This document shows, one piece after another, positions 1,182 to 14,157 of a DNA stretch of 64,000 bases. Both the position numbers and the translations under genes were made by a program. The first letter of the stretch is position 1; every line of letters begins with the position of its first letter. Source of the stretch: Alphaproteobacteria bacterium (GTDB lineage: Bacteria; Pseudomonadota; Alphaproteobacteria; Geminicoccales; Geminicoccaceae); NCBI GenBank assembly GCA_026982705.1, contig JALSGP010000033.1:1-64000 (forward strand). Reading direction: 5' to 3'. The notes below the pieces were generated by a model. That model saw nothing but the letters and a program-made list of their open reading frames with translations. It did no database searches and was not told the origin of the DNA.

Positions 1182-2381
1182 ATGACATCGCCCGAGGCGA
1201 TCGATCGTGAGATCGATGGACGGCGACTGAGAATCGCGGGATTGTTCGCCGGGATCGGTGGTTTCGAACTCGGCCTCGCACGTGCGGGGCACCGAGCGAT
1301 CCTGTTCTGCGAAAACTGGAGCCCGGCGGTGGCGGTGCTCGCGTCACGTTTTCCCGAGATTCCTCGCGTGGGAGACGTGTGTGGACTGCACGATCTTCCC
1401 TCGGAGACCGACCTGGTCTGTGCCGGTTTTCCATGTCAGGACCTCAGTCAGGCGGGTCGTACCGCGGGAATCGCGGGTGCTCGATCGAGTCTCGTCGGCG
1501 AGCTGTTCCGCCTGCTGGATCGGCGGCCCGTACCGTGGGTTCTGCTGGAGAACGTGCCCTTCATGCTCAGACTGGGGCGCGGTCGGGCCATGAGTCACGT
1601 CCTCGGTGCCTTGGAAGAGCGCGGATATCGATGGGCCTACCGGGTGGTCGACACGCTCGCGTTCCTTCCTCAGCGTCGTGAACGCGTGTTCATTCTGGCT
1701 TCACGCGAGAACGATCCGGCCGACGTCCTGTTCGGGGACGACGTGACCGTGGATCTGCCGCGCACGGATCTCGATCGTTACGCCCACGGCTTCTACTGGA
1801 CCGAAGGTCTCCGAGGCCTGGGCTGGGCCGTCGATGCCGTCCCGACTCTCAAGAACGGATCCGCCGTCGGGATTCCTTCGCCTCCTGCCATCCTCTTGCA
1901 GGACGGACGGGTCGTCAAACCCGATCTGCGCGATGCGGAGCGACTGCAGGGGTTCCCGGCCGACTGGACGGCCCCGGCCGCCGACGTCGCCCGTGCCTCC
2001 TACCGCTGGTCGTTGGTGGGGAACGCTGTCTCGGTCCCGGTCGCCGAATGGCTCGGTAGGCGCCTTCGATGGCCCATGCCGTACGACCATCGTCGCGACC
2101 GACTGGATTTCGACGGTGCGCCGTGGCCTCTGGCCGCCCGGTGGGACGGTAAACGCCGTATCGCCGTCGACATCGGGACCTTTCCGGTTCGGAGGAGGCG
2201 TCCGCATCTACACGAATTTCTGACCTTTCCGGGAACACCGCTGTCTCCGCGCGCGATCCGCGGCTTTCTCGCACGCGCGCGCCGTTCGCGTTTGCGGTTC
2301 CCCGACGGCTTCCTCGAGCGCTTGGAGAATTTTCTTGCTCGCACGACCGTAAGCGTACGAGGTTCGGTGGCAGCGGAATGA
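1182..2381 (+). CDS. DNA (cytosine-5)-methyltransferase (Dcm-type)
   Basis: This 399-aa enzyme should transfer a methyl group from SAM to C5 of cytosine in a specific recognition site. Motif I (LFAGIGGFELGL, residues 21-32) binds SAM. The catalytic Cys85 lies in GFPCQDLSQAG (motif IV). ENV (123-125) is motif VI, QRRERVF is motif VIII, and GNAVSVPVAEW is motif X. The region between VIII and X would hold the target-recognition domain. The gene has plainer codon use and lower GC than its neighbours, which suggests horizontal transfer. It overlaps vsr by ATGA. With vsr and the convergent gene it forms a Type II restriction-modification island between mazG and fatty-acid genes. No other in-frame start near 1182 looks better. 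The target sequence cannot be read from the protein. Confidence 0.93.
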   Translation: MTSPEAIDREIDGRRLRIAGLFAGIGGFELGLARAGHRAILFCENWSPAVAVLASRFPEIPRVGDVCGLHDLPSETDLVCAGFPCQDLSQAGRTAGIAGARSSLVGELFRLLDRRPVPWVLLENVPFMLRLGRGRAMSHVLGALEERGYRWAYRVVDTLAFLPQRRERVFILASRENDPADVLFGDDVTVDLPRTDLDRYAHGFYWTEGLRGLGWAVDAVPTLKNGSAVGIPSPPAILLQDGRVVKPDLRDAERLQGFPADWTAPAADVARASYRWSLVGNAVSVPVAEWLGRRLRWPMPYDHRRDRLDFDGAPWPLAARWDGKRRIAVDIGTFPVRRRRPHLHEFLTFPGTPLSPRAIRGFLARARRSRLRFPDGFLERLENFLARTTVSVRGSVAAE

Positions 2382-2839
2382 AAACACGCCGCGCGCGACC
2401 GCTCGACCCTGCTCGCAGCGTGCTCATGAAACGTGTACGTCGCGTACGCACCCGTCCGGAAGACATCGTGGCGAGCGTGTTGCGTGAACTGGGTGTACAC
2501 TATCGGCGCAATGTCCGAGCCCTACCGGGCAGTCCGGATTTTGCCAATCGGCGGCGAGGATGGGCGATCTTCGTCAACGGATGCTTCTGGCACCATCACA
2601 GGAACTGTCCACTCGCGACGATTCCGACGCACAACCGTGAATTCTGGATGGATAAATTTGCCCAGAACCGACGACGCGACGCGCGCAAACTGTGTGAACT
2701 GCGCCGTGCAGGGCTACTCATTTGCATTATCTGGCAGTGCCAGACTCGGGATCCGCGACATTTGCGGGCACGTCTCGAAAGGTTCTTCGAGCAGGTGCAC
2801 CGGCGGCGTGAAACCGCGGTCAGTCGTCCTCCCAACTGA
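2378..2839 (+). CDS. vsr: Very short patch repair endonuclease Vsr
   Basis: Vsr nicks 5' of the T in T:G mismatches that arise when 5-methylcytosine deaminates, so it protects sites modified by the partner methyltransferase. The 153-aa protein has LPGSPDF (the catalytic Asp of the family), NGCFWHHH and IIWQC; the Cys/His residues correspond to the structural zinc site. The Thr-His pair just before GCFWH in E. coli Vsr reads Val-Asn here, as other distant members also vary. The ATG overlaps the methyltransferase stop (ATGA), so the two are translationally coupled. The 3' end overlaps the convergent gene by 20 bases. An N-terminal extension of about 20 basic residues precedes the usual start of the fold. 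Confidence 0.9.
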   Translation: MKTRRARPLDPARSVLMKRVRRVRTRPEDIVASVLRELGVHYRRNVRALPGSPDFANRRRGWAIFVNGCFWHHHRNCPLATIPTHNREFWMDKFAQNRRRDARKLCELRRAGLLICIIWQCQTRDPRHLRARLERFFEQVHRRRETAVSRPPN

Positions 2840-3589: not shown

Positions 3590-5140
3590 CTAGCGTATGT
3601 GCTTTCTCCGGCCAAGGGGCCGGAGATCTTCGGGCGTTCGAAGCGAGAGGCCGAGTTCGGCACGGCGGCGCAGCCACAGGCTCGCCCGGTAGCGGGGATC
3701 GCCGGTGCGGGCGTGAACGGCGTCGAGAATCTCCACCACCACCCCCGGCCCCAGCGCATCGCCCCATTCGAGCGGCCCCTTCGGATAGCCGAGGCCCAGC
3801 CGCACCGCCCGGTCGATGGCCTCGGGCGCGGCGATGCGGCGCTGGGCGATCTCGCAGGCGATGTTGACGATGGTGGCCACCACCCGCTGGCACACGAAGC
3901 CGGCGCTGTCGCGGATCACGCCGACCGGCACGCCGTCCGCCGCCAGCAGGCCGCGGGCCATGTCGCGGTACTCGGGGCGGGTGGCGGGGTTCGTCATGAG
4001 CGTGCGGTGGGAGTCGAGCCCGAAGAGGGGATCGACGGCCACCGTCCGCGCCGGATCGAGGCCGAGGGCGCGGGCGGTGGCCGTGCAGTCCGTTCCCACC
4101 GGCGTCACCAGGATCAGCGCCTCGGCCGAGGGACGCACGTCGCGCTCGATGCGTCCGCCCATCTCGCGGACCAGCCGCTCCAGCCGCGGCGCGTGGGGAC
4201 CCGGCGCGATCCACACCGAGGCGGGGCGCGCGGCGGGCGGGGCGGGTGGTGCCGGCACCACCGGCCGGCCGGCCTCGTAGGCGTAGAACCCGCGTCCGCT
4301 CTTGCGACCCAGCAGTCCCGCCTCCAGCCGGCGGCGGGTCAGCGGCGAGGGGCGGAAGCGTGGCTCCTCGTAGAACTGGTGGTAGATGCTCTCCATCACC
4401 GGATGGGAGACGTCGAGACCGGTGAGATCGAGGAGCTCGAAGGGGCCCATGCGGAAGCCCGCCCCCTCGCGGAGGATGGCGTCGAGGGTGGCGGGATCGG
4501 CCACGCCCTCCCCCAGCAGCGCGAGCGCTTCGGTGGGATAGCCGCGGCCGGCGTGGTTGACCAGGAAACCCGGCATGTCGGCCACCCGCACCGGTTCGTG
4601 GCCGAAGCGGCGGGCCAGCCCCTCGAGGGCCTCCAGCACCGCCGGCGCCGTCCGCACGCCGCCCACCACCTCCACCAGTCGCATCAGCGGCACCGGATTG
4701 AAGAAGTGGAAGCCGGCCACCCGCTCCGGCCGGCGGCAGGCGGCGGCGATGGCCGTCACCGACAGGGAGGAGGTGTTGGTGGCGAGCACGCAGTCCTCGC
4801 CCACCACCGATTCCAGGTCACGGAAGAGGGTGCGCTTGGCCTCCAACTCCTCGACGATGGCCTCCACCACCAGATGGCAGCCGGCGAAGTCGCCGAGGTC
4901 CGCGGTCTCCTCGATGCGCGCGAGCGCCGCCTCCGCCGCCTCCGGCGGGAGCCGGCCCTTCTCCGCCTGCCGGCGCAGCATGCGGGCGACGAACTCCCGG
5001 GCCTCGGCCACCGCACCCGGGCGGGCATCGTGCAGGCGCACGCGCAGTCCCGCCGACGCCGCCACCTGGGCGATGCCGCGGCCCATCACGCCGCTGCCGA
5101 CGATGCCGAGGAGGAGATCGGGGCGGTTCGGATCGAACAT
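3590..5140 (-). CDS. 3-hydroxyacyl-CoA dehydrogenase, two-domain type (PaaH-like)
   Basis: The 516-aa enzyme should oxidise 3-hydroxyacyl-CoA to 3-oxoacyl-CoA with NAD+. The Rossmann motif GIVGSGVMGRGIAQ starts at residue 12. TNTSSLSVT, GFHFFNPVP and the DMPGFLVN/GPFELLDLTGLDV segment form the first catalytic and dimerisation domains. A second HCDH C-terminal-like domain follows (RDSAGFVCQRVVATIVNIACEIAQ, GLGYPKGPLEWGD). This is the layout of the roughly 500-aa PaaH/PaaC family of phenylacetate or fatty-acid degradation. The ATG at 5140 lies 1 base after the hydratase stop, so the two genes form an operon. The C-terminus ends 7 bases from the possible start of the restriction gene, which marks the insert boundary. 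The physiological substrate is not visible. Confidence 0.88.
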   Translation of the reverse strand: MFDPNRPDLLLGIVGSGVMGRGIAQVAASAGLRVRLHDARPGAVAEAREFVARMLRRQAEKGRLPPEAAEAALARIEETADLGDFAGCHLVVEAIVEELEAKRTLFRDLESVVGEDCVLATNTSSLSVTAIAAACRRPERVAGFHFFNPVPLMRLVEVVGGVRTAPAVLEALEGLARRFGHEPVRVADMPGFLVNHAGRGYPTEALALLGEGVADPATLDAILREGAGFRMGPFELLDLTGLDVSHPVMESIYHQFYEEPRFRPSPLTRRRLEAGLLGRKSGRGFYAYEAGRPVVPAPPAPPAARPASVWIAPGPHAPRLERLVREMGGRIERDVRPSAEALILVTPVGTDCTATARALGLDPARTVAVDPLFGLDSHRTLMTNPATRPEYRDMARGLLAADGVPVGVIRDSAGFVCQRVVATIVNIACEIAQRRIAAPEAIDRAVRLGLGYPKGPLEWGDALGPGVVVEILDAVHARTGDPRYRASLWLRRRAELGLSLRTPEDLRPLGRRKHIR

Positions 5141-5141
5141 C

Positions 5142-5915
5142 TCAGCGTCCCTCGAACTCGGGCCGGCGCTTGTCGAGGAAGGCGCGCATGCCCTCCTTCT
5201 GGTCGCGGGTGGAGAAGAGGAGCTGGAAGGCCTTGCGCTCGAGGGCGAGGGCGGTGGCGAGCGGCGCGTCGGCCCCCAGCCGCAGCACCTCCTTGATCTC
5301 GCGGACGGCCAGCGGCGGCATGCGGGCGATGCGGCGGGCGACGGCCAGCGCCTCCGCTTCCACCTCCGCATCCGGCACCAGCCGCGAGACCAGCCCCATG
5401 GCCGCCGCCTCGCGACCGGAGACGCGTTCGCCGGTCATCACCAGCCAGGCGGCGCGATAGGGCCCCACCGCCCGCAGCAGGCGCTGGGTGCCGCCGGCGC
5501 CGGGCATGATCCCCACCCGCACCTCCGGCTGGCCGAACTCGGCGTTCTCACCGGCGACGATGATGTCCGCGTGCATGGCGAGTTCCATGCCGCCGCCCAG
5601 GGCATAGCCGCGCACCGCCGCGATCAGGGGCTTCGGGAAGTCGGCGACGGCCTGCCACAGCCGGTGCGTGGCCCGACGCATCATCTCCACCGAATCCGCG
5701 TCCACCATCTCGCCGAGATCGGCGCCGGCGGCGAAGGCGCGCTCGCTGCCGGCCAGCACCGCCACCCGCACCTCCTCGTCCTCGGCGAGATCCCGGAAGG
5801 TACGGGCGAGCGCCCGCCGCAGCTCCATGTCGAGCGCATTGAGCCGTTCCGGCCGCCACAGGCGCACCAGCACCACCTGCGCCTCCGGCCGCTCGATCCG
5901 CACCGGTCCCTCCAT
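5142..5915 (-). CDS. Enoyl-CoA hydratase/isomerase family protein
   Basis: This 257-aa crotonase-fold protein has RPERLNALD, AFAAGADLGEM (first oxyanion-hole loop), YALGGGMELAMHADIIVA and FGQPEVRVGIMPGAGGTQRL. Both catalytic Glu positions of true hydratases appear to be kept (the E of GGMELA and the E of FGQPEV), so hydration of trans-2-enoyl-CoA is likely. It is the first gene of an operon with the 3-hydroxyacyl-CoA dehydrogenase, whose product would act next in beta-oxidation or the phenylacetyl-CoA pathway. The ATG at 5915 was chosen over longer open frame upstream because coding similarity begins there and a promoter-like site lies at 5942-5970. No thiolase or acyl-CoA dehydrogenase is adjacent. 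Confidence 0.9.
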   Translation of the reverse strand: MEGPVRIERPEAQVVLVRLWRPERLNALDMELRRALARTFRDLAEDEEVRVAVLAGSERAFAAGADLGEMVDADSVEMMRRATHRLWQAVADFPKPLIAAVRGYALGGGMELAMHADIIVAGENAEFGQPEVRVGIMPGAGGTQRLLRAVGPYRAAWLVMTGERVSGREAAAMGLVSRLVPDAEVEAEALAVARRIARMPPLAVREIKEVLRLGADAPLATALALERKAFQLLFSTRDQKEGMRAFLDKRRPEFEGR

Positions 5916-5941
5916 GTCGGCCTCCCCGCGGCTCCGCCGGC

Positions 5942-5970
5942 GGACTAGCCGGCCCGCCGCGGCGGGACAA
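5942..5970 (-). promoter_or_regulatory. Putative sigma-70 promoter of the hydratase/dehydrogenase operon
   Basis: Read on the minus strand, -35 TTGTCC (5970-5965), exactly 17 bases, then -10 TAGTCC (5947-5942). The ATG at 5915 is about 26 bases downstream. It is back-to-back with the plus-strand promoter at 5999-6027. Confidence 0.5.
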
Positions 5971-5998
5971 GCCCGGCCGCGCCCTCCGACGCGCCGCA

Positions 5999-6027
5999 TT
6001 GGCGCCCGGGCGCGATCATGGTAGACT
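5999..6027 (+). promoter_or_regulatory. Putative sigma-70 promoter of the 120-aa membrane protein
   Basis: -35 TTGGCG (5999-6004), 17 bases, -10 TAGACT (6022-6027). The start codon at 6075 lies 47 bases further on. The hexamers and spacing match other sites in this window. Confidence 0.55.
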
Positions 6028-6074
6028 GGCCGTGGCCCCGTCCGGGTCCGGACCGTCACCGGAGATCCGTCGCC

Positions 6075-6437
6075 ATGTCGCCCCTCGAGCGGGCCGCGGA
6101 GATCTCCATCGGTCGGGCGGTGGGCTTCGCCGCCCTCGGCATCTGCGTCACCATGGCCGGTCTCGCCTTCGATCCGGGTCTCGCCTTCACCACCGGGGCG
6201 GTGCTGACGCTGGGCCTCGCCGCCGTGCTCGCCCTCAAGGCCCGCATGGCCCCCACCTACCCCTACCGTCGCACCGAGGCCTGGCTGATGCTGGAGCCGG
6301 CGCCGGCCTGGGCACCGGAGGTGGCCCAGCGCATCGTCGGCGGCGTGCTGGCCGAGACCTTCCGCCGCTACGCCCGCCTCGCCCTCGCCGCCGCCCTCGG
6401 ACTGTGGCTGGTGGGGCTCCTCTGGCGGATCGCCTGA
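6075..6437 (+). CDS. Conserved small inner-membrane protein, function unknown
   Basis: This 120-aa protein has two adjacent hydrophobic stretches (about residues 16-52, split by DPGL), a soluble middle with YRRTEAWLML, and a C-terminal hydrophobic helix (YARLALAAALGLWLVGLLW). This pattern resembles a conserved hypothetical membrane protein I associate with alphaproteobacteria, but I know no function for it. The ATG at 6075 was preferred to the open GTG-type upstream extension because the upstream part has no coding character and a promoter ends at 6027. It is divergent from the enoyl-CoA hydratase. Confidence 0.75.
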   Translation: MSPLERAAEISIGRAVGFAALGICVTMAGLAFDPGLAFTTGAVLTLGLAAVLALKARMAPTYPYRRTEAWLMLEPAPAWAPEVAQRIVGGVLAETFRRYARLALAAALGLWLVGLLWRIA

Positions 6438-6519
6438 AGAGCTGCGACGACCGGCTCGCTTGTCGGGCCGTCGCCGGAATCCCATGGGTGGTGCGGGACC
6501 CGAACGGACGGAGCGGAAC

Positions 6520-6711
6520 ATGGCGGAAGCGGGCGAGGGCCCGATGGCCCACGACGAGGGTCTGGGCGGTTTCGGCTGGCTGGTGCTGCTGCTGGTGGTG
6601 CTGCTGGTGCTGCTGGCGGTGTTCTGGCCGGCCGGCGTGTTCTACGTGATGCTGGTGCTGGGCTTCGTGGTGCTGGCGGCGCTGGCGTGGCTGTGCGCCG
6701 GTCGCGGCTGA
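6520..6711 (+). CDS. Small two-helix membrane protein, hypothetical
   Basis: The 63-aa product has a short polar N-terminus (MAEAGEGPMAHDEGLGG) and then almost uninterrupted hydrophobic residues that could form two helices split at FWPAGVF. GGAGCGGAAC precedes the ATG at good ribosome-binding distance, and a GC-rich hairpin follows the stop at 6742-6772. There is a second possible ATG at 6544. I do not recognise a family. Low-complexity Leu/Val stretches arise easily in this composition, so the gene could be spurious. Confidence 0.45.
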   Translation: MAEAGEGPMAHDEGLGGFGWLVLLLVVLLVLLAVFWPAGVFYVMLVLGFVVLAALAWLCAGRG

Positions 6712-6741
6712 CCGCGGCCGGGCCTGCCGGCCATGAACGCG

Positions 6742-6772
6742 GGAGGCCCCACCGCCGGGCGGTGGGGCCTCC
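6742..6772. terminator. GC-rich hairpin, bidirectional terminator
   Basis: A perfect 15-base inverted repeat (6742-6756 with 6758-6772) with a one-base nominal loop lies between convergent genes ending at 6711 (+) and 6797 (-). Tails are only weakly T-rich. Confidence 0.65.
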
Positions 6773-6796
6773 TTCCGGTGCGGATTCCCGGAACGC

Positions 6797-8665
6797 TCAG
6801 TCCACCGGGAAACGATAGCCGAGACGGAAGCCGATCCGCTGATCGGTGCCGGCATCGCCGCGCACCAGCCCCCAGTCCGCGCCGAGCGAAAGACCGTCCC
6901 CGCGCACCAGCGTGGCCGAGAGACCGACGCGCAGCGCGTCGCGGGAGGGCAGCTCCACCGTTTCCACACGGCGGGTGCGGCCCTCGGTGAGGGCGAGTTC
7001 CACCGTGCGGTCGGAAAAGTCCCGCACCCAGGCGAGCTCGCCGGAAAGATGGAGGAGGCCCAGTCCCTCCACCGGCCGTTCGGGCGCGGCGAAGCGCAGC
7101 CCCAGCTCCAGGGTGCGCTCGTCGAGGGTGGCGTCGCCGAAGCGCACCCGGCCCACGTAGGGATCGTCGAGGGCGTAGCCGTCCACCTGCCGCCGGGCGA
7201 ACTCGAGGCCGAGCCAGGGCGAGAGGGTGGCCCCGCCCACCGTGAAGGCGGTCTCGAGGCGCTGGCCGAGGCGCAGGGAGGTCACCCCGGTACCGCCGCG
7301 CACCGCCTCGCCGGAGAGGGCGTCGAAGCGGCTGCGGTTCACGTCCTCGCGGCCCCACAGCACCCGGGCGGTCCACACATACCCCTCACCTTCGTGGACC
7401 AGGGCGAAGCCGTCGAGACCGCCACGCACCGTCGCCCGCTCCTCGCCGAAGCGACCGGCGTAGCGGATGCCGTCGACGCTCTCGGCATGGACGAAGGCGA
7501 GACCGGTGGCCTCCCCCAGCCGCCAGCCGATGCCGACACCGCGATAACCGTCGCCGGCGGTGAAGGCGGTACCGGAAGGCGCCCCCGTGTCGCCGACGGT
7601 GAAGCCGAACACCGGCATTTCCGTCTCGGCGGCGAAGGCGTAGGCGTCGACGAGGCCGTTGTCGATGTCGGCGATGAGCTGGGGCACGGTGGTGCTCACG
7701 CCCGGATCGAGGCTGTTCGCCCAGTTCCAGCCCTGGGTCAGATAGTGCTCCACCAGCGCGCCCAGCAGCTTCTGCCCGGCCTCCGAATAGACGGCGTTGA
7801 AACGCGAGCCGCTGAAGATGTCGGTGGCGGCGGAGAGACCCCAGTTGGAAGGCCGGTCCATCACCCGGTCGAAGAAGGTGAGGGCGTCGACGGCCACGAA
7901 ACCGCCGGTGGGTGGGGTGGCATAGTCGGTCAACTTGGTTGCCCAATGGATCGAGAAGCTGCGGAGTGCTGCCGCTTCCTTCGCGGTCCACCCCGGCTGC
8001 CGACCCACGTCGTGGGGCAGGATCAGGAACACCTTGCGTCCCTTGGCGGTGGCACCGGCGTTCTCGAGGCGGTCGAGCTGTGCCTCCGCGAAGGTCCAGC
8101 GGCTGTCCAGTTCGGACGTGTTGTACACCTGTGTGATGTCGTTCAGCCCGATCTGGACCACCGTGAGGGCCTTCTTGCTGGCCCTGAACTTGTCCGGCCT
8201 GGGTTTGTTCTTTCTCTTTTTCTTCTTCTGGAGAAGATCGTCCATCTGCTGGGCGATGTCGTTGTCCGTGTCGCCGCCGGTGGCCCCGGCCCGCGCCAAG
8301 CTCGTCACCTTGCGGAACAGACCGCGATCCCGCTGCCATTCCCACCAGACCTTGACGGAGCCTCCGGCCACCGACTCCTCGTCGCCGAGGACGAAGAGCT
8401 GCTTCACCCGGACCTGATTGGCGTCGCGCGGCTTCTTCTTGGCGTAGGGATTCGCCGGATCGAACCGGTAAGGCTTCGGCTTGCCGCGCCCACGCTTCTT
8501 CGCCTGCACCGCGAGCGCGCCATCCGCCACGGTCCCGGGACAGGCCGCGACGGCCGTCGGATCGTCGTCCGTGCAGACCTCGAAGGCCGCGGCCGGCGTC
8601 GTCGCCAGCCCCAGCACCAGCGCCACGCCCGCGACCCCTGCCATCATGCGCGCGTCGTGTCTCAC
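6797..8665 (-). CDS. Autotransporter-like beta-barrel protein with inactivated SGNH passenger
   Basis: This 622-aa protein has a signal peptide (hydrophobic core about residues 8-27, ending PAAA), an SGNH-like passenger, and a roughly 280-aa C-terminal beta-barrel with alternating aromatic strands that ends GFRLGYRFPVD. The fold markers are kept (FVLGD, QIGLND at 171-176, ALVEHYL). The catalytic positions are not. The nucleophile Ser of GDS is Glu96, and the Asp and His of the DxxH block are Asn291 and Tyr294. The paralogue just upstream keeps all three. Two Lys-rich inserts occur at about residues 56-79 and 147-165. The GTG at 8665 was chosen over the ATG at 8684-8686 because GAGAGGAGGAAC precedes it at ideal spacing. 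It is probably a surface-exposed, non-enzymatic protein. Confidence 0.75.
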   Translation of the reverse strand: MRHDARMMAGVAGVALVLGLATTPAAAFEVCTDDDPTAVAACPGTVADGALAVQAKKRGRGKPKPYRFDPANPYAKKKPRDANQVRVKQLFVLGDEESVAGGSVKVWWEWQRDRGLFRKVTSLARAGATGGDTDNDIAQQMDDLLQKKKKRKNKPRPDKFRASKKALTVVQIGLNDITQVYNTSELDSRWTFAEAQLDRLENAGATAKGRKVFLILPHDVGRQPGWTAKEAAALRSFSIHWATKLTDYATPPTGGFVAVDALTFFDRVMDRPSNWGLSAATDIFSGSRFNAVYSEAGQKLLGALVEHYLTQGWNWANSLDPGVSTTVPQLIADIDNGLVDAYAFAAETEMPVFGFTVGDTGAPSGTAFTAGDGYRGVGIGWRLGEATGLAFVHAESVDGIRYAGRFGEERATVRGGLDGFALVHEGEGYVWTARVLWGREDVNRSRFDALSGEAVRGGTGVTSLRLGQRLETAFTVGGATLSPWLGLEFARRQVDGYALDDPYVGRVRFGDATLDERTLELGLRFAAPERPVEGLGLLHLSGELAWVRDFSDRTVELALTEGRTRRVETVELPSRDALRVGLSATLVRGDGLSLGADWGLVRGDAGTDQRIGFRLGYRFPVD

Positions 8666-8782
8666 GGCGTTCCTCCTCTCCCGCATCGCCCATTGTCCAT
8701 AGCAGAAACGTCCCCGGCTGTCTCGGACATCCCCCGCGGGCTCGATAGCCGAGTATGCGGAACCTTCACACCGGGATACGGC

Positions 8783-10576
8783 TCAGCGGACGGAGATCAC
8801 GGGCCAGCGCCAGGACAGGCGCACGGCCGCCGCGTGCTCGGTCCCGGCGGTGGTGCGCGTCAGACCGTAGCCGGCGCCGAGACGCAGGCCGTCGCCCAGC
8901 GTCAGATCCCCCGACAGGCCGAGGGTGAGGGCATCCTGTCCCGCCAGCACCACCCGTTCGCGGTGGCCGAACCGCCCCTGCCGCAGCCGGAGGGTCACCG
9001 TGTCGTCGGAGAAGTCCCGCACCACCGCCACGTCGGCGGCGAGACGCAGGTCGCCGTCGCCCACCGTCACCGGCGGCAGCTCGAAGCGCAGGCCGGCGCG
9101 GCCGAGGGTCTCCGTCACCGTCGCCGCCCCGAAGCGCACCCGGCCCAGATAGGGATCGGCCATGCCGTAGGCGCCGATACGTCGCCGTGTGACATCGAGC
9201 CCCACCCAGGGCGAGAGGGTGGCCCCGCCCACGCCGAAGGAGGTGGCGAGACGCTGCCCGAAGGCGAGATGCGTCACCTCGGCCCGACCGCGGCTGCCGG
9301 TGGCGGAGACGGCATCGAAGCGCGAGCGCGCCAGCTCCTCGTGCCCCCACGTCACCCGTGCGGTCCAGCCGAAGCCCAGGGCCTCGCCCACCAGCGCCAC
9401 ACCCTCCGCACGGAAGCGGCTCCGCGTCCGCTCCTCGCCGTCGCGTCGGGCGAAGGTCAGATCACGTCCGGCTTCGGCGTGAATCAGGGCGAGACCGAGA
9501 CCGGGGGTGAGCCGCAGGCCCGCCCCGATCCCGCGCCGCCCCTCCTCGGCGAAGGCGAAGGTCGTCGTCTCCGTCCCGGATTCCGCTTCGCCGATGGCGA
9601 AGGCGAGGGTCTCGCCGGCCTTCCCGCCGCCGGCGAAGGCGGTGATCAGTCCCGCGTCGATGTCGGCGTTGAGCTGGCGGACGGTGTCGGCGCCGGCCAC
9701 CAGCGTGTTGGACCAGTCCCAGGCCTGGGTGAGATAGTGTTCCACCAGCGCGGCCAGGAGGGCGTGTCCCCGCTCGCCGAAGTGGACGCTGTCGTAGAAG
9801 AGGGCCGTGGCGTTGGGACCCACCGCATTGGCCGGATCGGGCGTGGTCACGTTGACGAGCCCCCATTTCGCGGGATCCCGGAACACCCGCTCGAAGAAGG
9901 TGTAGACGTCCACCGGGACGAAATTGGCATTGGCGTTGCCGTAGTCGGTGAGGAAGTTCGCCCAGTCGAGGGTGTACTGCGTCCGGGTGGCGCGGTCGGC
10001 GACGTTCGGATAGCGGCCGTAGTCGGGGCTCAGCAGCAGGAACACCCGCCGCTCGTCGGCGGTGGCCCCGGCCGCCCTGAGACGCTCGAACTGCACCTGC
10101 GCGTCGGCCTCGGCCGCGTCCATCTCCGCGATGCTGCGGGCGAGGCGGATGTCGTTGAATCCGATGAACACGAGGGTGAGCTCGCGGCCCGAGTAGCGGT
10201 CGCGCTGCAGGAAGGCGTCCACCTGCTGTTCGAGGGAGCGGCCGCTGCGCGGGGTGGAACTCGCCTCCGCACCGCCCACCGCGTAATTGCTCATGCTGGC
10301 GAAGAGACCGCTTCGGAGCGCCTGCTCGTTCCACTGGCGGAAGGGAAAGGGAGTCTGGGGATCCTGCACCGAGTAGCTGTCGCCGAACACCACCGCCCGC
10401 GGCACCCGGACGTCGTCCTGGGTGGTGGCGCCGTTCCTCACGTAGATGTTGGGGACGTTGAACAGCCCCTGCCACGGCGCGGCCGCCCCGCCGCCCGAGC
10501 CGCCGCCCGCACAACCGGCGAGCCCCGCGAGCAGCGCCACCGCCGCCGCGCCACGCAACCATCGCGCCCGACTCAT
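8783..10576 (-). CDS. SGNH/GDSL esterase autotransporter with lipoprotein signal
   Basis: The 597-aa protein begins with a lipobox (LAGC, Cys22) after a hydrophobic stretch. It carries a complete SGNH hydrolase passenger: VVFGDSYSV (Ser67), NYAVGGAEA (Gly101), FIGFND (Asn141) and DSVH (Asp262, His265). A C-terminal barrel of about 280 residues follows and ends RLSWRWPV. The layout resembles EstA-type esterase autotransporters, which display a lipase or esterase on the cell surface. A lipid anchor on such a protein is unusual but known for a few autotransporters. The ATG is preceded by GAGGAGGAAGAGG. The downstream gene (6797-8665) is a paralogue with a ruined active site. Substrate is unknown. 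Confidence 0.8.
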   Translation of the reverse strand: MSRARWLRGAAAVALLAGLAGCAGGGSGGGAAAPWQGLFNVPNIYVRNGATTQDDVRVPRAVVFGDSYSVQDPQTPFPFRQWNEQALRSGLFASMSNYAVGGAEASSTPRSGRSLEQQVDAFLQRDRYSGRELTLVFIGFNDIRLARSIAEMDAAEADAQVQFERLRAAGATADERRVFLLLSPDYGRYPNVADRATRTQYTLDWANFLTDYGNANANFVPVDVYTFFERVFRDPAKWGLVNVTTPDPANAVGPNATALFYDSVHFGERGHALLAALVEHYLTQAWDWSNTLVAGADTVRQLNADIDAGLITAFAGGGKAGETLAFAIGEAESGTETTTFAFAEEGRRGIGAGLRLTPGLGLALIHAEAGRDLTFARRDGEERTRSRFRAEGVALVGEALGFGWTARVTWGHEELARSRFDAVSATGSRGRAEVTHLAFGQRLATSFGVGGATLSPWVGLDVTRRRIGAYGMADPYLGRVRFGAATVTETLGRAGLRFELPPVTVGDGDLRLAADVAVVRDFSDDTVTLRLRQGRFGHRERVVLAGQDALTLGLSGDLTLGDGLRLGAGYGLTRTTAGTEHAAAVRLSWRWPVISVR

Positions 10577-10673
10577 GGACCTCTTCCTCCTCTCACCCGC
10601 CGCACTTCGATGGCATCACGTTAGCGGAAGCGGCACGAGCGAACACCCCCGCACGCGTCCGACGCACACGTGC

Positions 10674-11330
10674 CTACGCGCCTCGATCCTGCCCTGGCGA
10701 GAGCGGGCCTCCATCCCCACCGGCCCGCAGACGCGCCGCGGCGTGCGCCAGGTCCTCGGGTCGGTTGACGTTGAAGAAGGGATCCGCGGGCCGGGCCGGC
10801 CAGTCCACCACCGACAGCGGATAGCGGGCGGTGAAGAGGTCGATCTTGCGCACCCCCTCCGTCACCAGCGCCGTCCGCAGCGCCCCGCACAGCGCCACCG
10901 GCCACAGGCCGAAGACGGGATGGGTGCGCCCGCCGGAGGCGGCGCAGGCCAGCGCCGTCCCTTCCCGGTGGACCGCCTCCAGCAGGCGCGCCACCAGGTC
11001 CAGCGGCAGGAAGGGGGTGTCGGTGGCCGCGCTCACCACCCAGCCCACGTCCGGCGCCCGCCGCCGTGCCCAGTCCAGCGCCGCGAGGATGCCGGCGAGC
11101 GGGCCCTGATGGCCCGCCACCGGATCCGCCACCACCTCGAGGCCGAAGCGGGCGAAGCGACCGGGATCACCGTTGGCGTTGAGGATCAGCGCGTCCACCT
11201 GCGGGCGCAGACGGGCGATCACGTGTTCCACCAGCGGCCGGCCGCCCAGCTCCAGGAGCGCCTTGTCGCGACCGCCCATGCGCCGGGCGCGGCCGCCGGC
11301 CAGCACCACCGCCAGCACCCGCACGCTCAC
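10674..11330 (-). CDS. mobA: Molybdenum cofactor guanylyltransferase MobA
   Basis: MobA attaches GMP from GTP to molybdopterin to make the guanine-dinucleotide cofactor used by formate dehydrogenases. The 218-aa protein shows the nucleotidyltransferase signature [19 protein letters not shown] at the N-terminus, then [12 protein letters not shown] (metal-binding Asp) and [10 protein letters not shown] near the end. The GTG at 11330 overlaps the fdhD TGA (GTGA), so the genes are coupled, which fits joint maturation of a molybdenum- or tungsten-dependent formate dehydrogenase encoded elsewhere. The frame is open far upstream through fdhD, but similarity starts at this GTG. Confidence 0.9.
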
Positions 11331-12232
11331 GCCACCTCTCCCTCCGGCAGACTGCCCTTGCGCACGGTGCGCGGATCCTCCCGCTCCTCCACCGCCGACA
11401 GGGGGGCGTCGAAGACGATGCGGTGCTCGCCGGAAAGGGCGAGGAAGCGGCGGCCGCGGGCGCGCCCGATCAGGGTGAGACCGGCCTCGCGGGCGAGTTC
11501 CACCCCCCAGGCGGTGAAGCCAGAGCGCGAGACGAGAACGGGGATCCGCATCTGCACCGTCTTGATGACCATCTCGGAGGTGAGACGGCCGGTAGTGTAG
11601 AAGATCTTGTCCTCGGGGCGGATGCCGTGGCGGAACATGAAGCCGGCGATCTTGTCCACGGCATTGTGGCGGCCGACGTCCTCCATGTAGACCAGCACCC
11701 GGTCGCGGACGCACAGCGCGCAACCGTGGATGGCGCCGGCCTTGAGATAGAGCGAGGGGGTGGTGTTGACGCGCCTCAGCAGCGCGTAGAGCCAGGAGGT
11801 GCGGATCACCGCGTCCCCGGCGAGGCGGATCTCGTGGAAGTGCTCCATGAGATCGCCGAACACCGTGCCCTGGGCACAGCCGGAGGTGCGGATGCGCTTC
11901 TCGAGCTTCTTCTGGTAGTCGGTGGCGCGGGCGGTGCGCACCACCACCACGTCCAGCTCCTCGTCGTGGTCGATGCCGGTGATCTCGTCGTCCGGCCGGA
12001 GCATGTTCTGGTTGAGGAGGAAGCCGAGGGCGAGATACTCGGGATGGTCCCCGATGGTCATCACCGTGACGATTTCCTGGTCGTTGAGGAAGATGGTGAG
12101 GGGACGCTCGTGAACGACGTGGGCTTCCACCCGCCGCCCCTCGTGGTCGAGGCCGGTCACCGCCCGCGTCAGCCGCGGGTCGTCGGGATCCGGCAGCAGC
12201 AGCGCCTCGCCGTGCGCGGACGTCTCGGACAT
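11327..12232 (-). CDS. fdhD: Formate dehydrogenase accessory sulfurtransferase FdhD
   Basis: FdhD passes sulfur from a cysteine desulfurase to the Mo-bis-MGD cofactor, which formate dehydrogenase needs for activity. The 301-aa protein has [20 protein letters not shown] near the N-terminus, [12 protein letters not shown] at the position of the reactive Cys loop, [24 protein letters not shown] and [17 protein letters not shown]. coli FdhD has two Cys in the loop (CxxC); here only one is present. The ATG at 12232 follows GGGAGGGCGGGGACC. It is divergent from the PBP gene with only 29 bases between the starts, so at least one promoter must overlap coding sequence. It forms an operon with mobA. 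Confidence 0.92.
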
Positions 12233-12261
12233 GGTCCCCGCCCTCCCGTCTGCGGTGGTGC

Positions 12262-14157
12262 ATGAGCATGGCGAGGCGGACGCGAAAGTCGAGTCGCCCC
12301 GCGCGGTCCACCACACGGACCCGTCGGCGCGTGCCGGCGCGGCGCCGTCCCGGCGGCCGCCCCGCCCGCTGGCGCCGCCGGCTGACGCGGTCGCTGCTGG
12401 CGCTGCCGGCGCTCCTCACCGGTCTCGTGGCGGCGGGCGGACTGCTGCTGTTCCTGAGTCTGCCGCGCATCCCCGACCCGCGGGCGGAGCTGGCCGGCCG
12501 CGATCTCCCCCGCGTCACCTTCCTCGCCGCCGACGGCCGCGTGCTGGCCGAACGCGGCGGACGCGGTCCCACCCATCTGCGGCTGGGCGAGATCTCGCCT
12601 TATCTGGTGGCGGCGGTGCTGGCGGTGGAGGACCGGGACTTCTTCCGCCATCCCGGGATCGATCCCCGCGGTCTGCTGCGGGCCCTGTGGCGGGTGGTCC
12701 GGGAGGGCGACTATGTGGCCGGCGGCAGCACCATCACCCAGCAGCTCGCCAAGAACCTGTTCACCGGCGGCGAGCGCACGCTGCTGCGCAAGCTCCGGGA
12801 GCTGGCCGCCGCCGTGCGGCTCGAACTCGCCCTCTCCAAGGAGGAGATCCTCGAGCTCTATCTCGACCGCGTCTATTTCGGCGCCGGCGCCTGGGGGGCG
12901 GAGGCGGCGGCCCGCACCTATTTCGGCAAGTCGGCGGCTGATCTCGACCTCCTGGAAGCGGCGGTGCTGGCCGGGCTGCTGCGCGCGCCCGCGCGCCTCT
13001 CGCCCCTGCGCGATCCCGAAGCCGCCCGGGCGCGGGCACGGGTGGTGCTGCGGGCGATGGTGGCGACCGGCGCCATCGACGAGGCCGCCGCCCGCGCCGC
13101 CCTCGCCCGGCCGCTCCGGCTCGCGCCCGTTCCCGCCTTCGCCCGCCACTTCCTCGACCGGGCCGCCCGCGAGGTGGACGCCCGTCTCGGCCCGCCCACC
13201 GCCGACCGGGTGGTTCACACCGCGCTCCGCCCCGCGCTCCAGCGCCGGGTGGAGGCGGCCCTCGCCCGGGCGCTGGCCGTCCGGCCCGGTCTCGAGGGTG
13301 CGGTGGTGGTGCTGGACCGGCAGGGCCTCCTGAGGGCGCTGGCGGTGAGCCACCCGCGGCGGAGCGCCCGTGATCGCACCGCCATGCCCCGTCCCCCCGG
13401 CTCCGCCTTCAAACCCTTCGTCTACGCGGCGGCGCTGGAGGCGGGGATGACGCCGGCGACGGTGGTGGACGACCGGCCGGTGACGGTGGAGGGCTGGAGT
13501 CCGCGCAACTGGGACGGCCGCTTCCGCGGCCCCGTCACCCTCACCCGCGCCTTCGCCCTCTCCCTCAACACCGCAGCGGTGCGCCTGCAGGAGCGGGTGG
13601 GGCGGGACCGGGTGATCGCCCTCGCCCGCGCGGCCGGCATCACCGCACCCCTCGCCCCGCTGCCCTCCCTCGCCCTGGGCACCCAGCCGGTGACGCCGCT
13701 GGAACTCACCCGGGCGGTGGGGGCGCTGCTGACGGGCCGGCGCCTTCCCGCCACCGCGGTGGTGCGGGTGGACGACGGCGCCGGCCGGGTGCTGGCCACG
13801 GCCCCGCTACCGGGTGCACGGGTGGTCACGCCGGCCACGGCGGCGGCGCTCGAACGGCTGTTCGTGGCGGCGGTGCGGGAGGGGACGGCGCGGGCCGCCG
13901 CCGTGCCGGGTGCCGTGGTGGGCGCCAAGACCGGCACCGGCACCGGCGGGCGCGACGGCTGGATGGTGGGCTTCGCCGGCGATCTCCTGATCGGCGTCTG
14001 GGTGGGTCGCGACGACGCCCGGCCGGTGCCGGGTCTCGCCGGCGGCACCCTGCCGGCCCGCATCTTCCGGGACGTCGCCCGGGCGGCGGTCGCCCGCCGC
14101 GCCGCCGCCCTCACCCCGTCCCCGCCCCGTCCCCGGCCGCCGGCTCGTCGCGGGTGA
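12262..14157 (+). CDS. Class A penicillin-binding protein (transglycosylase/transpeptidase)
   Basis: This 631-aa bifunctional enzyme polymerises and cross-links peptidoglycan in the periplasm. A basic cytoplasmic tail of about 40 residues precedes one membrane helix (about 44-66). The glycosyltransferase domain has [12 protein letters not shown] (catalytic Glu123) and [13 protein letters not shown]. The transpeptidase domain has the nucleophile in PGSAFKPF (Ser381, Lys384), SLNTA, and [12 protein letters not shown] (Lys556). Length is nearer PBP1C-type enzymes than PBP1A, but the PBP1C C-terminal extension is absent. A second ATG lies at 12268. The last 47 bases overlap the convergent agmatine deiminase gene, giving a Pro/Arg-rich tail. 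Confidence 0.92.

Follow-up and report, generated by a model that had tools for sequence, protein, structure and literature searches.

A conserved triad-less SGNH autotransporter beside its active paralogue in one genus of uncultured alphaproteobacteria

The tandem autotransporter genes and their products

The window, that is the whole stretch of 64,000 nucleotides that was analysed, contains two adjacent genes on the minus strand that encode SGNH-fold autotransporters (Table 1). They are tandem paralogues and the only two copies of this autotransporter in the genome. The active paralogue, an intact open reading frame, adjoins the triad-less gene on its transcriptionally upstream side. The triad-less coding sequence is likewise intact and comprises 622 codons when read from GTG 8665, a plausible start that is preceded by a strong ribosome-binding stretch, GAGAGGAGGA. 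The in-frame ATG at 8686, upstream of this GTG, is also open and gives a protein of 629 residues. Depending on the start, the intergenic gap amounts to 117 bp (GTG) or 96 bp (ATG). A simple scan for promoters and terminators found none and gave no operon signal.

Table 1. Features of the triad-less gene and its active paralogue in the window
Feature	Position	Strand	Basis
CDS, triad-less SGNH autotransporter	6797..8665	-	open frame; Pfam Lipase_GDSL E 3.9e-6; full-length EstA fold match; purifying selection
Signal peptide, signal-peptidase-I type, assigned by eye, MRHDARMMAGVAGVALVLGLATTPAAA	8585..8665	-	sequence; site without lipobox, unlike active copy
N-terminal Cys pair C31 and C42	8540..8575	-	in 3/3 downstream copies
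SGNH-fold passenger without nucleophile and His	7736..8455	-	Pfam, AF2 model, Foldseek, alignment
E96 codon at the catalytic Ser site (GDEES; Asp in G003)	8378..8380	-	alignment
Lys-rich insert KKKKRKNKPRPDKFRASKK, blocks II to III, in the downstream clade only	8171..8227	-	sequence comparison
N175 codon, oxyanion-hole Asn of block III, kept	8141..8143	-	alignment
Block V remnant FNAVYSE without catalytic His	7781..7801	-	alignment
Linker helix into barrel, predicted	7622..7687	-	AF2 model
C-terminal beta-barrel, about 12 strands	6800..7612	-	AF2 model; Foldseek EstA/EspP/BrkA; weak EstP barrel match
CDS, active SGNH autotransporter paralogue, 597 aa, lipoprotein-type signal (LAGC)	8783..10576	-	open frame, Pfam, alignment, lipobox
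Catalytic Ser67, active paralogue	10376..10378	-	alignment
Oxyanion-hole Asn141, active paralogue	10154..10156	-	alignment
Catalytic Asp262-x-x-His265, active paralogue	9782..9793	-	alignment

The paralogues are 42% identical over 575 residues (BLASTP E 5e-119). Both exceed the curated cutoff of Pfam Lipase_GDSL; in the Pfam scan the triad-less protein did not reach PF03797. In AlphaFold2 (AF2) models, each of the two proteins has an alpha/beta passenger and a barrel with some 12 strands; the linker helix is clear in the downstream model. Confidence of the models is low (pLDDT 57 for the downstream and 50 for the active protein) because only six sequences were usable. The best Foldseek match of both models was full-length EstA of Pseudomonas aeruginosa (PDB 3kvn; E 3.6e-14 downstream, 1.2e-11 active), and the match of the downstream model spans 556 columns. 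Sequence searches of the PDB with the single proteins yielded no meaningful match; with a 13-sequence profile SGNH enzymes and the AaaA barrel were found. A reading of this DNA made from the letters alone, hereafter the sequence-only reading, had described the two products as sharing an SGNH passenger and a beta-barrel, which agrees with their identity and with the EstA-type layout of both models. By architecture (signal peptide, passenger without a beta-helix stalk, linker helix, 12-strand barrel), the downstream protein is predicted to be an EstA-type type Va GDSL/SGNH autotransporter.

A lipobox (LAGC, LSGC, LQGC or LSAC) followed by Gly-rich or Pro-rich linkers was observed in the active copies of the genus and in several single-copy homologues of the family (window 8783-10576; L006, L007, L009, L013, L015). 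Because of this start, these proteins look like lipidated EstA-type autotransporters, of which we know no described example. Lipidated autotransporters of other kinds exist, among them NalP and SphB1 (PMC8151025).

Elsewhere in the window, a Dcm/Vsr-like pair lies at 1182-2839 (+), between mazG and a hydroxyacyl-CoA dehydrogenase gene; its C5 cytosine DNA methylase gene (DNA_methylase E 2.4e-41) overlaps the one for a Vsr mismatch endonuclease (E 3.3e-19). A small predicted membrane protein is encoded at 6018-6437 (+), convergent with the triad-less gene; a similar open reading frame occurs in G002 (MSPLERAAE.S.GRAVGFAA).

Loss of the catalytic residues

The active copy contains all five SGNH positions, S67 in GDSYS, the Gly of block II, N141 in GFND, and D262 and H265 in DSVHF, including the four residues that the earlier reading had named. 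In the triad-less copy the Ser site, set by the flanking GD, is occupied by Glu (GDEES, E96), as had been noted before. Block III reads GLND, with N175, and block V reads FNAVYSE, with N290 and Y293. Counted from GTG 8665, the latter two replace the residue numbers 291 and 294 given previously, which were one too high. The proposed exchanges of Asp for Asn and His for Tyr hold in so far as the catalytic His is lost; the particular pairing represents only one of two reasonable registers. Block V is gap-ambiguous, and MAFFT places D opposite a gap and H opposite Val. Whatever the register, the triad-less protein has no His in the stretch that separates the AVD strand from the LVEHY helix, and therefore the catalytic His has been lost.

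All three downstream orthologues are without Ser and the catalytic His; each has kept the block II Gly and the block III Asn of the oxyanion hole. The Ser site reads GDEES, GDEES and GDDHS, so that an acidic residue (E, E, D) occupies it in each case. In the window and G002 copies, block V is devoid of His, and the sole block V His of the G003 copy stands opposite a His of the active copies that is not catalytic. The G002 orthologue reads DAVY in block V and may have kept the Asp. One His is invariant in the clade, that of LVEHY; the active copies have it too, and some active homologues have Tyr in its place. An intact Ser/Asp/His set elsewhere in the downstream protein was looked for and not seen. 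Such an alternative triad was rejected on the basis of the clade-invariant residues and the lack of a His in block V, and the clade-specific positions contain no conserved new Ser/His/Asp set.

Judged by the active site that defines SGNH hydrolases, the triad-less protein falls outside this group through the lack of the block I Ser and the block V His; the oxyanion-hole residues are present. A Lipase_GDSL call above the cutoff does not prove an active enzyme, since this protein exceeds it although it lacks both Ser and His. The triad S, D, H is intact in all 31 SGNH autotransporters outside the genus with the relevant columns (6 single-copy family relatives with full columns and 25 EstP-like autotransporters across the phylum). 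The loss is more than chance because it is common to three species, while every other homologue with these columns keeps S, D and H. In two active homologues, L007 and L015 (G023 and G020), the column of the block II Gly is occupied by Lys (YARGKASA, YAKGKASA), with Ser, Asn, Asp and His kept; their Gly may simply be shifted by one.

Distribution, phylogeny and purifying selection

The genus sample comprised four genomes, that of the window (G000) and G001, G002 and G003. The same tandem pair occurs in G002 (Rhodospirillales bacterium S141_52, WFXL01, locus L019) and G003 (Bacterium HR39, BEIP01, L020), and the gene order PBP, fdhD, mobA, active copy, triad-less copy, enoyl-CoA hydratase (ECH) is kept in L019. 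Neither autotransporter was found anywhere in the assembly of G001, which is 99% complete, though PBP, fdhD and mobA are present. Compared with window 3590-12316, the G001 locus (L047, G001:C212) retains the PBP-fdhD-mobA block and then continues with different genes. G001 may have lost both autotransporters, or the others may have acquired both. Across 385 genomes of the class, a search for the full-length family gave matches at E 1e-15 in just two, that of the window and another of its family with a single copy; a plasmid search found nothing. So far, the triad-less form is confined to one genus of uncultured alphaproteobacteria.

The downstream copies form one clade with a support of 100/100, drawn from three genomes of which two are incomplete. 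The active copies of the genus (91/91) are sister to this clade, and all six sequences group together with 100/99. The suggestion that the triad-less form is conserved as a clade beside active copies is thereby borne out for three species, and none of the downstream homologues is a scattered pseudogene with stops. The barrel-only tree fails to resolve psd_G003 (67/54), so that monophyly of the downstream copies is based on the trees of the whole protein and of the passenger. From the tree, in which the three downstream copies form one clade beside the genus's active copies, a single tandem duplication in the genus lineage would be the simplest history. In the passenger tree the stem before the downstream clade is long, 1.05 substitutions per column versus 0.41 for the active clade, as expected if the downstream protein changed its role and then settled.

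Members of the downstream clade share the insert PRPDxFxASKK with preceding lysines and the N-terminal Cys pair, and they are devoid of the active copies' lipobox. In the N-terminal region and the passenger, 55 positions are invariant in the clade and different from the active copies; conserved positions peculiar to the clade lie, among other places, in the N-terminal linker, in the insert that precedes block III and right after block III (ITQVxN). G003 has a shorter Lys-rich insert, and the net charge of the passenger varies among the species (+10, +15, -3).

Selection was estimated as dN/dS by the method of Nei and Gojobori (NG86) with a codon bootstrap, comparing the window species with G002. 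The downstream passenger yielded dN 0.16 and dS 0.86, a ratio of 0.186 (bootstrap 95% 0.125-0.271), and the active passenger a ratio of 0.177 (0.111-0.270). The ratio of the downstream barrel, 0.456, lies above that of its own passenger; the neighbouring housekeeping genes fdhD and mobA gave 0.20 and 0.27. The triad-less passenger is thus under a constraint as strong as that on the active one and stronger than that on its own barrel. This comparison is fair within one genome pair, although the genome to which Nei-Gojobori was applied is rich in GC and saturation inflates the ratios against G003. Decay is excluded because the purifying selection on the triad-less passenger equals that on the active one, in line with the earlier proposal of a selected triad-less form. 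These sequence comparisons support the view of the downstream protein as a conserved pseudoenzyme, whose catalytic residues were lost in the clade and which is still under purifying selection.

Possible functions and related systems

The triad-less sister almost certainly does a non-enzymatic job, because its catalytic residues are gone yet the copy is preserved as strictly as the working one in three species. We give about an even chance to the view that it is a neofunctionalised pseudoenzyme whose inactive SGNH domain serves as a surface binding domain. A tandem duplication in the genus lineage would have yielded two EstA-type autotransporters, one of which remained an esterase. The ancestor of the second would have exchanged its Ser nucleophile for an acidic residue, lost the catalytic His and gained the Lys-rich loop and the N-terminal Cys pair, and in this lineage a signal of the signal-peptidase-I type presumably replaced the lipidation signal. 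The barrel would still present the passenger at the surface of the cell, and there the inactive domain may bind without hydrolysis, as an adhesin or for ligand capture; the site of binding might be the basic loop or a remodelled pocket in which the oxyanion Gly and Asn persist. The shorter insert of G003 and the varying net charge lend no consistent support to a ligand bound by electrostatics alone; polybasic binding as a firm mechanism was set aside since the charge is not conserved in G003.

In the main rival reading, which takes up roles suggested by the sequence-only reading, the inactive passenger might associate with the adjacent active one at the surface and stabilise it, guide substrate to it or restrain its activity, in the manner of other pairs of pseudoenzyme and enzyme. 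The genes are tandem, in the same order and 96 or 117 bp apart, three genomes hold both and the nearly complete G001 holds neither despite its fdhD-mobA block, and the pair has stayed together while three species diverged. Against this stand the number of only four genomes, the usual view of EstA-type autotransporters as monomers, the lack of an operon signal in the simple scan and the different signal types, with a lipobox in the active copy and none in the downstream copy. Such a partner or regulator is considered rather unlikely, and binding or adhesion independent of the active copy is at least as likely. Somewhat more doubtful still is the more specific proposal that the two genes make up a two-component surface system, with one SGNH autotransporter that is non-catalytic and dedicated to controlling or targeting the active paralogue; if true, type V secretion would assemble an enzyme/pseudoenzyme pair on the outer membrane.

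Continued catalysis by the passenger, whether through the acidic residue that replaces Ser or through other residues, is improbable. All three species have such a residue and retain the oxyanion Gly and Asn, but block V of the window and G002 copies lacks a His, the invariant LVEHY His also belongs to active copies and is replaced by Tyr in some active homologues, and no new conserved Ser/His/Asp set has emerged. Equally little probability is assigned to a passive surface or structural role as a decoy, a coat or an antigenic or phage-receptor variant, in which the fold and not the pocket would be selected. The surface-type architecture, the conserved fold and the basic loop would suit it, whereas a passenger conserved above its barrel (dN/dS 0.19 versus 0.46) is the opposite of what a diversifying or coat protein displays. 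A pseudogene is ruled out by the intact orthologues, the shared triad loss and the dN/dS. The lost catalytic residues and the stem of 1.05 substitutions per column could be taken for a decaying duplicate or an alignment artefact, a reading that is scarcely credible in view of full-length open frames in three species, the 69% identity between the G000 and G002 copies (68% for the active copies), the dN/dS of 0.19 and the GD anchor that fixes block I.

Pseudoenzymes as such are common; a literature search combining autotransporter and pseudoenzyme for this family found no relevant paper. To our knowledge, the described GDSL autotransporters are esterases whose natural substrates are unknown. An inactive, strictly conserved sister beside an active copy offers a ready comparison of which surface functions need catalysis and which only binding. 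In EstA of P. aeruginosa, as predicted for the proteins studied here, the SGNH passenger is joined by a helix directly to the C-terminal beta-barrel. EstA belongs with EstP, ApeE, McaP and PLB to the type Va GDSL-lipase autotransporters ('Group 6'), all described members of which have esterase activity (PMC9289746). The downstream protein differs from them by the lack of Ser and His and by its Lys-rich insert and N-terminal Cys pair.

The active site of the SGNH carbohydrate esterase CtCE2 also binds cellulose non-catalytically (PMC2661963), which resembles the role proposed here in that an SGNH active-site region binds without catalysis. CtCE2 differs in that it has kept its Ser-His dyad and its activity and is no autotransporter. 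Adhesion by McaP is reportedly the subject of Lipski 2007 and Timpe 2003, to judge from their titles. McaP of Moraxella catarrhalis, a GDSL autotransporter, also mediates adhesion (PMC9289746) but is one bifunctional active protein without a dedicated inactive paralogue. By analogy with the CtCE2 pocket, which binds a polymer without turnover, and with the McaP adhesin, a binding role of the triad-less passenger would have precedents and is favoured.
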